Shown here piece after piece: positions 3,837-30,166 of a stretch of DNA of 30,166 nucleotides (positions are counted from its first letter, which is position 1; every line of letters starts with the position of its first letter). This DNA comes from a virus. The notes beneath the pieces were generated by a model. That model was not told the DNA's origin, searched no databases, and saw only the letters and a list, made by a program, of their open reading frames with translations. Position numbers and translations under genes: made by a program. The stretch lies in IMG/VR virus record IMGVR_UViG_3300011271_000015, positions 1-30,166 of that record. One strand, given 5' to 3'.

Positions 3837-6800
3837 TCACTCGTCGACTGTCTCAATGAACCCGCCGATATTGGCGATGTTCGCCGGCCGTGGACGCGTT
3901 TGCTGCCAACAAATCATGCCATCGAAGCTGTAATCGTCAGTCAGCGTATCCCGATAGATGCCGTTGAACTGTTGATTGACCGTGTAAGCCGTATCATTCG
4001 CCAGCCGGAACTTAGCGGGGTCCATCTTGGCAAATGTGGTTCCGAACGTAATGCCGACGCCGGTCCCTTCCAGTTGCGCGGCCATCTTATGACTGCGGCG
4101 GCGCTTGCCCACTGCGGGTCCATTTCTGGCGCCACTCTCCTGCGGGGTCGCAGGCCTCACAATCTGACCCTGTGATGTAAATGTGAAGCCCACCAGCATT
4201 TGCGATAACGATAGGGTTGCCGCATACGCTGCAGTGAATAGCCCCGCCGCTGTTCCCGCCGAAATACCGTCCCCATATGGAACCGTGATCGAGCCGCTCG
4301 CTACTGTGTAATCGCCGCAGTCGAGCCCGCCAAGCCATGCCGTCACCGTCTGTCCGTTAAAGTGCCAGAGACCGTTGATCGTCAGGCCGCCATAGGGTGC
4401 AGGCGTCACATTGGACGACGTAACCGACGACGGGTTGATCGCATCGTCCAGGTAGGCGGCCTGCACGAGCGTATTGCCCTCGTCCACCGTGTCGGTCATG
4501 ACCTCGACGTAATTGATGCCAGTCACCGGATCCCGCGTCACCATGGTTAGGGCGTCGAGATTGCCACCTACACTAGGCCCGGAACAAATTGACTGAACTG
4601 TTCGTCCAGAACCCAAACTGTGGCGGTGCCAACCATTGATAGTAGGACCTGTGCTGGTGGCGAGAGTATCTCGTTTGTAGGTTGCTCCCCACCAGGTTCC
4701 ATCGGCGTTGCGTCCCCAGATAGAAGGAACGACTGCCTGCGTGTAGGCGAGCTCGGCCACCCCAGGTTTGGTGATGTGAAGCGTATCTTTGGCCAAGTTC
4801 GGAGCCGCGAACTTTCCTGAGTAGACATCGGTGAAGTACTCCATTACCTTGCGGGTATAGCGCTGCACGAACACGTTGGTGTGGTCGGTCTTGCGCGGTT
4901 CCACGTTGGCGCAGCCGATGCGGGTCACCCGATGCGCCCCGATATTGGCGGCCGACATGGCGCCCGGCGATGGTGCGGAGATCAACCACTCGCCCGCCTG
5001 CGTGCCCATGATGATGCCCTGCAGGTCAGGTGTGAACCAGAAGATCGGGTTGACGCCGTCCGAATTGACCACCCCCGTGATTGAGTTGGCTGCGCCCACC
5101 GTGCCGTTCTGATCGGTCGGCGCCATGTTGAGCGTGGTACCAATGAGGCCGTTCGAGACCGACGCGTCGAAGCGGTTGCCGATCGCGCCGCCAAGCCAGA
5201 TACGGCCTTCATGATAGGTGCCACAGGTCGGATAGCCGGTCGTATCGCTGTAAGCCCCCAGCCGCCATGTGATGCACGGATTGGTGTAGAGCAGCGGCTG
5301 ACCAAGTACTTCGATGTTCACGGCATTGCCGGAGCCACCGGCGCTGGGAGCGAAAAACTGCATCTCAGCAGCAGCAGCAATCACTTGAAGCGTTTGATTG
5401 CTGATGCTGAATCCTCCCGATACGAACGTCACATTGCCAACGAATTCAAACCAAACGTAATTCCAGGCCGTCACCGGGTCATTCGAAACCAAGGTCAATG
5501 AATTCGGCAAAGTTACGGAAACAGTTCCTCCGGTTGACCCCGTAATATTAGCCGTTGCCAGTAATGTGCCGTCCAACGCCGAAATCGGCGCAATCTGTTT
5601 TGCCCGCAAGTTCACGGTGTAGTTTGCTGACGATATAGTATCCAAACCAGCCAAAAAGCCAGTCGGGGAACCAGTCACATTGGCCTGGAAAAGGTTCGTG
5701 TTGGTCCCGCCAGTCATCACGACTGAAGCAACCTGTTGAGGAGATGCAGAAAAATTCTTGCCTACATAGGCATCGATCAAAAGAGTATGTGACATCCGGT
5801 CACTAATCGCCAGCGATGTCACGGCTTCGGCCGATTGCGACGCGGGCTGAAGAATGATGCCGTCGAACGCCGCCGCAAGACCGCCGCCCTGCGTCATCGT
5901 GCCGATAGGGCTGCCGGTCGCCTGCGAGATCGATCCGGCAAGCGACGTGATCTTGCCCCACGTCCAGTTTGCGGCGTTGCCCGGCGTCAGCGACCAGTTG
6001 GTCACATCGTTGCCGGGGATCTTGCCGGTGTTGCCCGCAAGCGCCGTCCAGTAGGTTGAAGCCCCGGGCGCGCCGGTCGGATTGTAGGAAACGATGTTTC
6101 CTGTCACATAGGCCGTTGCGACATTCCACGGCGCCGGTTCGGAGAACAACCGCACCAGGCGGCCAACGTCGGACCCAAGAAATCCCCGCCCATCATTGAT
6201 TGCGGTTCCAGCCGCAACCACTGCCCATGCGGCTGGCGCGCCTGCCGGCGTATTGCCGACGTTGTTGTCGATCAACGATCGGTAATCGATCGCCACCGAT
6301 ACGACGAAATCACCAACCTTGTAGGCTTTACCGGAATCGAATGCCGGAAACGCCAGCGAAAGCGTGATATTACCCTTGGTGCCATTCGGCACCGCCTGCA
6401 CGCCGTTGACGAACGGATCAAGGTATGGGCCATCGAGGAACGTCAGACCTGTCAGGCTGAACACCGCGCTGAGGCCGCCGGCCGGCAAGGTCGTCACCGA
6501 TAGCAGCTGCGGCGGGATCGATCCCTGCAGCTGCACCGCATTCGTCTCAGCCTGTACGAGACGCAGCGAGGCCCAGCTTCCGGCTATGTAGGGCGATGCA
6601 AGTTCCTGGAAACGAGAGACCGCCGTGGCAGTCGCAATCGGGCCAATCGTCGATCCATCGATGCTGGCGCCGGTGATCGCATCGGCCAGGCTGAAATGCG
6701 TGGAATCGATCACCGTAATGACGAACTGGCGGTTTTGCAGTGTCGGTGCGGTGACGCCAAGATTGCCGATAGTCACCGTATTCCCGGTCCCCCATGTCGT

Positions 6801-11807: not shown

Positions 11808-12296
11808 CTATTCCGTCATAAACCCGCTGACTACAGCCGTGCTGGAATAGCTCGACGCGACCGGAGACTTGGCGCGTATCACTGGACCAGCGAGGTTGAC
11901 GGCCGGCACGATGATGGACGACTTATCGTCGCGGAACTGGACGCGCCAGGATTGACGCTGGTTGAGCGGCATCGCCCATTGATTGGAACTCGCCGTCACG
12001 GTCGGTTCGGCCGTGTAATTTGCCGTGTAGGTGAGGAGCGCCGCCGCATCGCTATCGTCCGTCGTTGGCGTCAAAGCCGAACCGGTTCCAGCCGCCGTCA
12101 TCTTGTCGATGGAGTAAGACACAGGACCGTCTGTGGTCGACGGGGCGCCATCCTGACCGATGGTAAATTCCGTCAGCCACCCCCGCCGAAGCGTGGTTGC
12201 GCCGGTCGCAGCGTTGATACCGAGCAAGGTCTTGAACGCGCTCGTAAGCGATTGCTGCGAACCGGCATTGAGGTTGCTGACCTTATAGATCGGCAT
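11808..12296 (-). CDS. Virion-associated protein, possible head or tail decoration
   Basis: This 162-residue protein starts MPIYKVSNLNAGSQQSL, followed by a helix-like FKTLLGI, RRGWLTEFTIGQDG and alternating Thr/Ala/Ser-rich strands, with a W-R-V-Q-F-R-D-D strand near residue 128. The composition (neutral, beta-rich, few charges) fits a minor virion or decoration protein. A GGAG ribosome site sits 6 bases before the ATG. It lies in the set of small genes between the capsid and tail genes, each with its own Shine-Dalgarno or coupled start, as expected for abundant structural proteins. There is no specific homology I can name. Confidence 0.62.
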   Translation of the reverse strand: MPIYKVSNLNAGSQQSLTSAFKTLLGINAATGATTLRRGWLTEFTIGQDGAPSTTDGPVSYSIDKMTAAGTGSALTPTTDDSDAAALLTYTANYTAEPTVTASSNQWAMPLNQRQSWRVQFRDDKSSIIVPAVNLAGPVIRAKSPVASSYSSTAVVSGFMTE

Positions 12297-12305
12297 GACG
12301 TTCTC

Positions 12306-12857
12306 CTATCTAGCCAACGCTGCGGCGGCCAACACGGGCGCCATGTGACTGTTGAACTTGGCGGTGCGACTTTCGAGATCGGCATGCGCTTCCGCCAACT
12401 TCGCTTCGCGCTCATCCAGCGCCTTCAGACGCACCTCATGAGACGTCCTTGCGGCATCAAGTTCTTTCTGAAATCCGGCCACCCCAGAAGCATGCAGGGC
12501 CTGCTTCACCCGCAAATCGTCCTCGCGCTCTTGAAGCGATGCAGCAGCTTTGGCGTGAGCATCGATCCGCTTGCGAAGATCAGCATCCGTCTTGGCGAGA
12601 CGACCCTCTACCTCATCACGATGCGCCTTTGTTTGAATGGCAAGCCGCTCGGCCTCAGCGCGATTAGCTTCGGACTGCCTGACCGCCTCCATGGCCGCAT
12701 TGGCTCTTTCAACGGCAGCATCCTTTTCCGTACTGATCTCTTTCAGAAAATCCGCCGCCGCTTTGGTTTTCGGGTTGCCGACCATATCCAACAACGCCCA
12801 TACGCCGCGCATCTCGCTGGTGGTCACGTCCGGCATAATGGTGTTCTGAAAGGGCAT
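12306..12857 (-). CDS. Coiled-coil virion-region protein
   Basis: This 183-residue protein is counted from ATG 12857 (MPFQNTIMPDVTTSEMRG). An upstream in-frame GTG at 12914 would overlap the previous gene by 50 bases and is less likely. After a short N-terminal segment, residues about 40-165 are a continuous amphipathic helix rich in Ala, Glu, Lys and Arg (for example AVERANAAMEAVRQSEANRAE), a strong coiled-coil prediction. There are no cysteines, membrane segments or catalytic motifs. It could be a trimeric fibre stalk, a head-tail spacer or a chaperone. Nothing in the sequence decides between these. Confidence 0.62.
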   Translation of the reverse strand: MPFQNTIMPDVTTSEMRGVWALLDMVGNPKTKAAADFLKEISTEKDAAVERANAAMEAVRQSEANRAEAERLAIQTKAHRDEVEGRLAKTDADLRKRIDAHAKAAASLQEREDDLRVKQALHASGVAGFQKELDAARTSHEVRLKALDEREAKLAEAHADLESRTAKFNSHMAPVLAAAALAR

Positions 12858-12864
12858 AGCCGGC

Positions 12865-13185
12865 CTACGTGCTGAGGATGACCGCGACTTTGAAACTTTG
12901 GCCTTTGGGGACACCGAAGTATTCCGTCTGGTTGGCCGCTAGTCTCGCCGTTCCGCTCGCACCAGCCGCTACGGCAGTCGGATTGAGACCAAACTCAATC
13001 GCGCAGATGCTATCCGCATGCAGCCGCACAAACCGCGTAGCGGTGTTGAACGCTGCCGATTGAGTGTTGCCGCCGGTGTTGACAATGGCCTGTTCGGCCA
13101 ACGGAGGCTGGGCAGCAAACTGCCCGACCCGCCCCGCCGGCCCGATCTCGACCTCGGCGAACTCGGTGATGTAGAGGAAGGCCAT
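12865..13185 (-). CDS. Small conserved virion protein
   Basis: This 106-residue protein begins MAFLYITEFAEVE. It contains QPPLAEQAIVNTGG, SAAFNTATRFVRLHAD, a FGLNPTA turn and ends with TEYFGVPKGQSFKVAVI. Beta-rich proteins with this F-N-x-x-T-x-x-V-R-x-x-x-D and E-Y-F-G-V pattern recur next to phage capsid genes and are probably virion surface or decoration subunits (family knowledge, role uncertain). Its ATG overlaps the preceding stop (TGATG), so translation is coupled to the 73-residue gene upstream. Confidence 0.68.
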   Translation of the reverse strand: MAFLYITEFAEVEIGPAGRVGQFAAQPPLAEQAIVNTGGNTQSAAFNTATRFVRLHADSICAIEFGLNPTAVAAGASGTARLAANQTEYFGVPKGQSFKVAVILST

Positions 13186-28832: not shown

Positions 28833-29183
28833 TTATTCCTTTCCTCCAAGGCGGCCGCGACGTCGAGCTGCCAGATCGCGAAGGAAATCCACGTGCGGGC
28901 GATGAAAATCAGCGTCGCTCGCTTCCAGCCGAGCAGCCGCAGTTTCAAGCTGCTCGATGACGTGCTGTTGCTCATTTTGTCTTTTCTCGGCGGCAATCTT
29001 CAGCCTGCGGGCTGTCTCGAATGAAATGTTCGGTTCGCTGTGCCACACTCCCCGTACGGCGCGCGGATGCAATCCGGCGGCCTCAGCCACCCGCCGCAAC
29101 CAGTCAGCCCGCGTTTCCCGCGGCCGACGGTTGCCCCCGATTGCAGCTACCAACTCACGCAAGTGAAATTCTCCCGTATCCAT
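28833..29183 (-). CDS. HTH regulator with coiled-coil tail
   Basis: This 116-residue protein is counted from ATG 29183 (MDTGEFHLRELVAAIGGNRR), with GGAG 8 bases upstream. The frame stays open to 29381, but the extension covers the repeat region and is unlikely to be coding. Residues about 22-65 (TRADWLRRVAEAAGLHPRAV, then RGVWHSEPNISFETARRLKI) resemble a lambda-repressor-like HTH of the kind with W-[LI]-x-x-x-A-x-x-A-G-L and S-x-x-T-A-x-x-L. A coiled-coil helix (NEQQHVIEQLETAAARLEAS) and a basic tail (LAARRRGRLGGKE) follow. It is the first gene of the minus-strand metabolism block, directly downstream of the structured repeats. Confidence 0.68.
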   Translation of the reverse strand: MDTGEFHLRELVAAIGGNRRPRETRADWLRRVAEAAGLHPRAVRGVWHSEPNISFETARRLKIAAEKRQNEQQHVIEQLETAAARLEASDADFHRPHVDFLRDLAARRRGRLGGKE

Positions 29184-29329
29184 CGCCCCATCTCCGTGTT
29201 TTGAGTTGCCGACACGAGAGACGGATTGGATCGACCTTGATGAAATGAGGAAAAAGCGGGCGGCCGCCAATTGCCATGTCGCCAGCCGCCCGCAGTCATC
29301 CGGCATAAGGGAGGGCCCATGCCGAGAAG

Positions 29330-29426
29330 ATGAGTGACGGCGGCAGCGACACGGGTTCGTGAGGCCGTCAACCTCGCCCATGCCGTGGGAGCTTGACGAA
29401 GCTCCTGCCGCCGCCGCCGATCAGCC
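29330..29426 (+). repeat. Structured repeat unit 1
   Basis: It begins ATGAGTGACGGCGGCAG and ends CTGCCGCC...CGATCAGCC. The arms GGCGGCAG and CTGCCGCC pair. Inside lie four consecutive small stems: CACG-GGTT-CGTG, GAGG...CCTC, CCCA...TGGG and AGCTT-GACG-AAGCT. The first bases can also be read as a 10-codon frame MSDGGSDTGS ending in TGA. The unit is 97 bases. Confidence 0.6.
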
Positions 29427-29464
29427 GGTGCAAGATTTCCACGTCGAGCACATGGCCGAATGGA

Positions 29465-29540
29465 ATGAGTGACGGCGGCAGACTGTTGGTTCGGTGACCA
29501 ATGTCCGCGGACTCCGCAAGGCTGCCGCCGTCGATCAGCC
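29465..29540 (+). repeat. Structured repeat unit 2
   Basis: The first 17 bases are the same as in unit 1, and it ends CTGCCGCCGTCGATCAGCC. Arms GACGGCGGCAG and CTGCCGCCGTC pair over 11 bases. Inside are TTGGT...ACCAA and GCGG-ACT-CCGC stems. The reading frame from its ATG is MSDGGRLLVR then TGA. The unit is 76 bases. Confidence 0.62.
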
Positions 29541-29575
29541 TTTGAGCGGGTTAACTCTCCATAGGCTGAACCAGA

Positions 29576-29639
29576 ATGAGTGACGGCGGCAAAGTCGTTG
29601 CGGTTGTCCGGTAACGGAAGTCGCCGCCGTCGATCAGCC
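29576..29639 (+). repeat. Structured repeat unit 3
   Basis: It begins ATGAGTGACGGCGGC and ends GCCGCCGTCGATCAGCC. Arms GACGGCGGC and GCCGCCGTC pair over 9 bases. The inside has a TCCG-GTAA-CGGA hairpin with a GNRA-type loop. The frame from its ATG is MSDGGKVVAVVR then TAA. The unit is 64 bases. Units 1 to 3 keep their ends and change their interiors and lengths. Confidence 0.62.
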
Positions 29640-29722
29640 GACGGGAGATCGGCCGAACAGGTTGTGATAGGTTGTGGCGTTAATAAAAATAGTCTTGACA
29701 GTTGTATAGAGGTAACAGAATC

Positions 29723-30061
29723 ATGACAAAGGCCACTCGAAAACCGCAGATAAGGCATGGAACGGTCAAACGTTTGGCCGGGGGAAGCGTAGTCATGGAT
29801 TTTATTGAGGAGATTGTTGACGAAGGTGCGCCTGAATTCGCCGTCACCGGGATTGCCAGCATAGAACGCATCAGCGCAGGCCAAGTTCGATTGACAAAGT
29901 ACAGCCGGCGCCGGGATGGCAACGTCGTCGTCTTTCACGAGGTGTGGGATTTCGAGACGCTCAAGCGCTCGCAGAACATGTACACGAAAGCTCTGGCCGA
30001 TATCGACCGCGTGTGGCGCAGTGATGGCCCCGAGGATGGACGGCGGCGGGAGGCGCACTGA
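29723..30061 (+). CDS. Small protein of unknown function, plus strand
   Basis: This 112-residue protein is counted from ATG 29723 (MTKATRKPQIRHGTVKRLAG), with GAGGT about 9 bases upstream. An earlier in-frame ATG at 29702 overlaps the ribosome-site region and is less likely. It is basic at the start, then has strand/helix alternation (VMDFIEEIVDEGAPEFAVTG, RISAGQVRLTKYSRRRDGNV, VVFHEVWDFETLKRSQNMYT). It is not recognised. It may be an early gene of a new operon. A TTGACA box stands 23 bases before the ATG, without a clear -10. It is convergent with the gene at 30064. Confidence 0.58.
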   Translation: MTKATRKPQIRHGTVKRLAGGSVVMDFIEEIVDEGAPEFAVTGIASIERISAGQVRLTKYSRRRDGNVVVFHEVWDFETLKRSQNMYTKALADIDRVWRSDGPEDGRRREAH

Positions 30062-30063
30062 GG

Positions 30064-30166
30064 TCATTCCGCGGCCTCCCGATCGCGCGCGTGAATGCGC
30101 ATCAGAAACTCTGCCGTCACGCCTTCAAGTCTGCGCCCAGCGGCCGCTTCGATGATCTTCGGCCAA
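30064..30166 (-). CDS. C-terminal end of a minus-strand gene (cut by window edge)
   Basis: The frame is open from the window edge to a TGA at 30064-30066. The last ~34 residues read PKIIEAAAGRRLEGVTAEFL and MRIHARDREAAE, a regular amphipathic helical pattern with normal codon use. The stop lies 2 bases from the end of the plus-strand gene, so the two are convergent. The function cannot be told from this fragment. Confidence 0.45.
   Translation of the reverse strand, partial: WPKIIEAAAGRRLEGVTAEFLMRIHARDREAAE

Follow-up and report, generated by a model that had tools for sequence, protein, structure and literature searches.

An array of alternating hairpins that keeps one reading frame open in the early region of six phage contigs

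The nutR–tR1 interval of phage lambda, between cro and cII, occupies the same place in the early operon as the locus described here and likewise has hairpins, one of them terminator-like, ahead of the next early gene; we know of no alternating array, head exchange or long open frame in that interval. ColE1 RNAI and R1 CopA are similar in having tandem stem-loops on overlapping transcripts, with loops that could set specificity. HK022 likewise makes an early transcript with stem-loops in tandem: its put RNA is a conserved sequence of about 70 nt with two stem-loops, whereas the present array has two to three A/B pairs, freely differing heads and an open frame (PMC9378689). Measured against nut and put elements, the array agrees in position and hairpins only. 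TIGR arrays are tandem variable palindromes in phage genomes, built from regular units with two variable 8–12 nt spacers (PMC12045711). Rickettsia palindromic elements and PARCEL (PMC2996958) consist of palindromic units that are compatible with open reading frames and move between genomes, and the present array, like an inserted Rickettsia palindromic element, leaves an open reading frame open. It differs from them in its single locus per genome, variable heads and lack of a conserved peptide.

The window analyzed here is a stretch of 30,166 nucleotides from a virus (IMG/VR record IMGVR_UViG_3300011271_000015, positions 1 to 30,166). A first-pass annotation had described three tandem structured repeats in it. 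The coordinates given for them are exact, and comparison of repeat and fold with shuffled sequence excludes chance. The array elements, scored where applicable with a covariance model (R1) and compared with the related contig L004, are as follows.

About 29256–29325: unit 0, an A-type hairpin at 29256–29293 (GCGGGCGGC..GCCGCCCGC) and a B-type hairpin at 29300–29325
29330–29426, 97 nt: A unit 1, defined by repeat and fold; R1 score 51.9 bits; interior 94% identical in L004
29421–29459: B hairpin 1, defined by its arms; weak pairing inside (one A·C cell)
29465–29540, 76 nt: A unit 2; R1 score 69.1 bits; interior 98% identical in L004
29535–29569: B hairpin 2, with covarying arms; homologue of the first B hairpin of L004
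29576–29639, 64 nt: A unit 3; R1 score 67.8 bits
29634–29656: B hairpin 3, defined by its arms

Units 1 to 3 begin with ATGAGTGACGGCGGC and end with CGATCAGCC, as originally stated. The whole record contains three exact copies of ATGAGTGACGGCGGC, all in the array. Exact copies of GAGTGACGGCGGC (n = 3) are likewise confined to the array within the window, and with up to two mismatches this motif occurs at 8 places in the window versus 1.8 expected (the maximum of 100 shuffles was 6). The ends do pair with each other, though the core arms of the A units are better given as GACGGCGGC/GCCGCCGTC, with one additional GCC triplet in the 3′ arm of unit 1. Hairpins that had been missed also form between the units and after the last one; they make up a second class, B (arms TCRGCC..GGCYGA), that alternates with the A hairpins. 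Linkers read AACTGGAAAGAGT or are variants of this sequence. Units 1, 2 and 3 fold better than shuffled sequences on either strand (z −3.1 to −4.8), as do whole arrays on both strands (z −4 to −7.5). The GNRA-type loop proposed for unit 3 can be drawn as CCG-GTAA-CGG but is absent from the minimum-energy fold. The interiors were correctly said to differ between units, yet L004 also contains the interiors of units 1 and 2, at the identities listed; the unit 3 interior has no counterpart among the other contigs compared. Unit 0 has the same design as the array units with different arms, lies inside a small plus-strand open reading frame and gives a weak R1 match at 29246–29302 (E 0.11). On the minus strand, its A-type hairpin carries a TTTTT tail at 29255–29251 and is terminator-like (nT 4.0).

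Five other IMG/VR phage contigs (L004, L012, L033, L047 and L095) carry the array, and the six contigs amount to about four independent lineages. In all six, it lies in the interval that separates a cro-like gene from the following early gene, as a single copy per genome. L004 was found by an exact array pattern. A looser pattern gave over a hundred loci, of which only those of L012, L033, L047 and L095 share flanks; L148–L152 and most of L005–L123 were discarded as chance matches. A more specific pattern scan and protein scans yielded no additional contig. Phage and plasmid records searched by DNA or protein gave no match for the array region, only distant terminase and portal relatives, and the ten matches of a genome pattern scan included no array. 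R1 and a pair of protein profiles were run on 385 genomes from the class to which an Acetobacter genome belongs, and one protein profile on 398 genomes of its phylum; neither search, each a weak test, gave a match, and they lend no support to a Rhizobiales host. Units of the six phages score 51–70 bits with R1, and strong matches occur only at the array locus; because the model, whose E-values are rough, was trained on most of these same units, these scores indicate coherence, not independent discovery.

The array is set among the following genes and sites.

28833–29183, minus strand: next early gene, in a cII-like position; family common to the relatives by alignment
29206–29337, plus strand: small basic open reading frame of 43 aa with an uncertain start codon; homologues in 5/5 relatives
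29695–29724, plus strand: promoter-like site TTGACA-18-AATCAT, a consensus match only; same in L004 (3515–3544)
29723–30061, plus strand: gene of an undescribed family, conserved in L004, L095 and L012; possible other start at 29795
30064–30166, minus strand: 3′ end of the cro-like gene, identified by translation and truncated by the window end
29147–30067, minus strand: 306-aa open frame that spans the array; stop-free in six phages, with indels that keep the frame

Read along the plus strand, the small basic frame is followed by the A/B array, the plus-strand gene and the cro-like gene, which is on the minus strand; beyond the cro-like gene, L004 has a cI-like gene on the plus strand. The complete cro-like homologue of L004 (3887–4114) gives a weak repressor-family match, and family searches gave no family name for the next early gene. 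The stop codon of the small frame (29335–29337) falls in unit 1, and its homologous products end in ..DE or in ..DWKE/..DWEE. Counted by plus codon position, substitutions number 3/4/9 and 2/0/6 in the small frame, with the third position dominating, and 28/17/48 in the plus-strand gene; by this measure both are coding on the plus strand. The presence of plus-strand coding genes on both sides of the array implies that plus-strand transcription exists. The product of the larger gene has no Pfam or PHROG match, and its structure model (pLDDT 73) has five strands and one helix, for which a fold search returned insignificant matches only, Borrelia Pur-alpha among them. L047 lacks this gene and keeps the array. 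In all relatives, TTGACA stands ~27 nt ahead of the first ATG of the gene, with a −10-like box over the ATG; the place and direction of this promoter-like site recall lambda pRE. The true start may instead be the second one (position 29795 in the window), which has an SD-like GGGGGAAG.

Several lines of comparison show that pairing in the array has been kept by compensatory change. In an alignment of B arms that were hand-trimmed and joined by a dummy loop, a procedure that favors pairing, 89% of cells are paired, 6/8 pairs show double changes and the covariation score is 0.385 versus 0.182 in shuffles (at most 0.106 when slid); 0/500 shuffles came as high. Comparison of L033 with L095, which is free of the hand-trimming bias, shows three double changes in the B stems (TA to CG, GC to AT and GC to AT) within DNA that is 92% identical around the array. 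A sub-hairpin common to L012 unit 2 and L095 differs by one compensatory pair (CTCTCG..CGAGAG versus CTCTCA..TGAGAG). Homologues with compensatory changes, whose absence the first-pass annotation had named as a refutation, do exist, and judged by such changes the array has conserved structure at the nucleic acid level, in either RNA or DNA. Its wobble pairs single out neither strand as the functional RNA.

The head of L033 unit 1 equals that of L047 unit 2 (32/32 aligned positions), and the head of L047 unit 1 equals that of L095 unit 1 (36/36), while outside the array place the contig DNA of L033 and L047 is hardly alignable. Conversely, L033 and L095 differ in the heads of both units despite their 92% identical surroundings. 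By these comparisons, heads are replaced between phages as cassettes and the arms are kept.

Lengths within the array are constrained as well. The heads of all 14 units, all inter-unit linkers and the six array-to-gene distances are constant modulo 3. Distinct lengths fall in one frame for 10/10 heads, 6/6 linkers and 6/6 array-to-gene distances, with a joint chance of about 9e-10 that counts distinct alleles only, from about four independent lineages and with the frame chosen after the fact. When the arms are masked and each set of homologous segments is counted a single time, minus frame f1, again chosen after the fact, has 0 stops in the six phages, compared with 23 and 16 for the two remaining minus frames; a Markov null has a mean of 15.8, and 0/3000 runs fell below 3. 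The part of the frame opposite the plus-strand gene is unremarkable, an open in-register antisense frame having a chance of about 0.2 per gene. The plus frames through the array contain 36, 35 and 20 stops, which rules out plus-strand coding there and makes UGA recoding at the repeated GAG-TGA-CGG unlikely. Where visible, the ATG of the minus frame overlaps the cro stop codon (ATGA) in 4/4 phages (the window, L004, L047 and L095), and GGGAGG lies 8 nt upstream of it in the window and L004. Substitutions in the array show no codon periodicity, so what has been kept is an open frame, not its amino acid sequence. A conserved minus-frame protein was rejected on this lack of a codon-position signal and on amino acids that give no sign of conservation. 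Since one reading frame is kept and the minus frame is open throughout, the array is not plain non-coding DNA.

The simplest reason for an open frame without a kept protein is that ribosomes must pass. Our preferred reading, to which we assign a probability of about 0.4, is that the array is a structured early-operon leader within a ribosome-traversed spacer frame, predicted to act as an attenuator or RNA recognition element. The early (minus-strand) transcript would be translated from the ATG coupled to the cro stop codon over as much as 1 kb of sequence antisense to plus-strand genes. The early transcript is C-rich across the array stretch, and Rho would have access to such RNA if it were untranslated. 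Coupled translation keeps terminator hairpins from forming and Rho from loading (PMC5021804). We infer from the open frame that ribosomes translate the minus transcript past the array and may thereby spare the early operon from loss to Rho-type polarity. On an early transcript free of ribosomes, the hairpins would fold and serve as a structured element for attenuation or recognition. The U5-tailed unit 0 would form a terminator-like end ahead of the next early gene in 4/6 phages, and a U5-tailed hairpin indeed stands there in the window, L004, L033 and L095. Against a terminator role for the array itself, terminator U tracts are absent after A units 1–3 (nT below 1.4, only unit 0 being near 4), and an intrinsic terminator array was discarded on this ground. 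Since transcription probably runs on both strands, an antisense RNA bearing these hairpins may contribute as well. The array sits at the phage decision region, and its open frame suggests that a phage may hold antisense sequence open to ribosomes solely so that early transcription passes.

Attenuation alone does not explain head exchange. Selfish or neutral palindromic repeats, similar to Rickettsia palindromic elements, could multiply in a spacer frame and be tolerated only where they are in frame and stop-free. The in-frame lengths, the open frame, the absence of amino-acid constraint and the duplication and exchange of units and heads are all compatible with such repeats, but the single locus per genome, interiors that are unconserved between units and compensatory changes in nearly identical phages, which point to selection on pairing, make this explanation rather unlikely. 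Heads that are exchanged while arms are kept could instead serve immunity or recognition: a plus-strand array transcript, antisense to the early transcript, would form kissing contacts with it through matching heads and so shut off early expression, and new specificities would arise as heads are exchanged, in principle as in ColE1 RNAI/RNAII or R1 CopA/CopT. This is consistent with hairpins that are stable on both strands and with the flanking plus-strand genes; L004, however, has a cI-like protein repressor, and we consider the idea unlikely. Quite unlikely is its fuller form, in which heads would be specificity cassettes of RNA-based immunity or interference, recombining at the conserved arms in frame with the ribosome-traversed early leader, such that matching sense and antisense heads decide mutual phage shut-off. 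The array is a clear example of hairpin structure and reading frame being conserved together while cassette exchange replaces the sequence, and it provides a compact model for hairpin-head exchange.

A set of small structured plus-strand RNAs from the 3′ region of the small frame, serving as sponges or decoys, would fit the start of unit 1 at the stop codon of that frame and the stable local hairpins, but it accounts for neither the locked frame nor the absence of stops on the minus strand and is very unlikely. Antitermination sites, nut- or put-like and repeated in the early leader, are suggested by the position after cro and by a minus-strand linker, CACUCUUUCC, that resembles boxA-type sequences and occurs in five units from four relatives. 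In the window and in two units of L004, however, the linker is CACUCAU.., the heads differ freely, whereas HK022 put RNAs share sequence (PMC9378689), and translation through an antitermination site would be unusual; we regard this explanation as highly improbable.

Comparison with named element classes gave no assignment, in keeping with the original annotation, and no Rfam match scored above the gathering threshold. A REP-type element, raised there as an alternative, is not recognized: in each phage record the array is confined to one locus with no dispersed copies, on which basis both REP and Rickettsia palindromic elements were set aside. Near-identical repeats with equal-sized spacers, as in a CRISPR, are absent, and the view that these are not simple iterons holds. 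A TIGR-Tas array was rejected because the heads are 24–69 nt and paired, the linkers conserved and the unit lengths unequal; no Nop-domain (Tas) protein was found near the array in the six records, which may be incomplete, and control genomes did match. A type III toxin–antitoxin RNA was rejected because the heads differ, where near-identical tandem repeats would be expected, and the neighboring proteins, among which a ToxN-type toxin would be expected, match no family.

A 307-aa open frame lies antisense to minus-strand genes at 11952–12875 (plus strand) in the window; its length is no evidence by itself, since long antisense frames occur elsewhere in the genome. In L012, a plus-strand open reading frame specific to this phage follows the array (~5766–5894, array strand), and its product resembles a small membrane protein (MMFFVGLAIGFVCGAAVMLLILWIW..). 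Two more conserved hairpins (GCGCACGGGC..GCCCGTGCGC and GGCGGCAGCG..CGCTGCCGC), seen in neither the window nor L004, lie past the array in three of the contigs.

L033 12790–12870, L095 3766–3850 and L012 5976–6062, array strand: additional post-array hairpins
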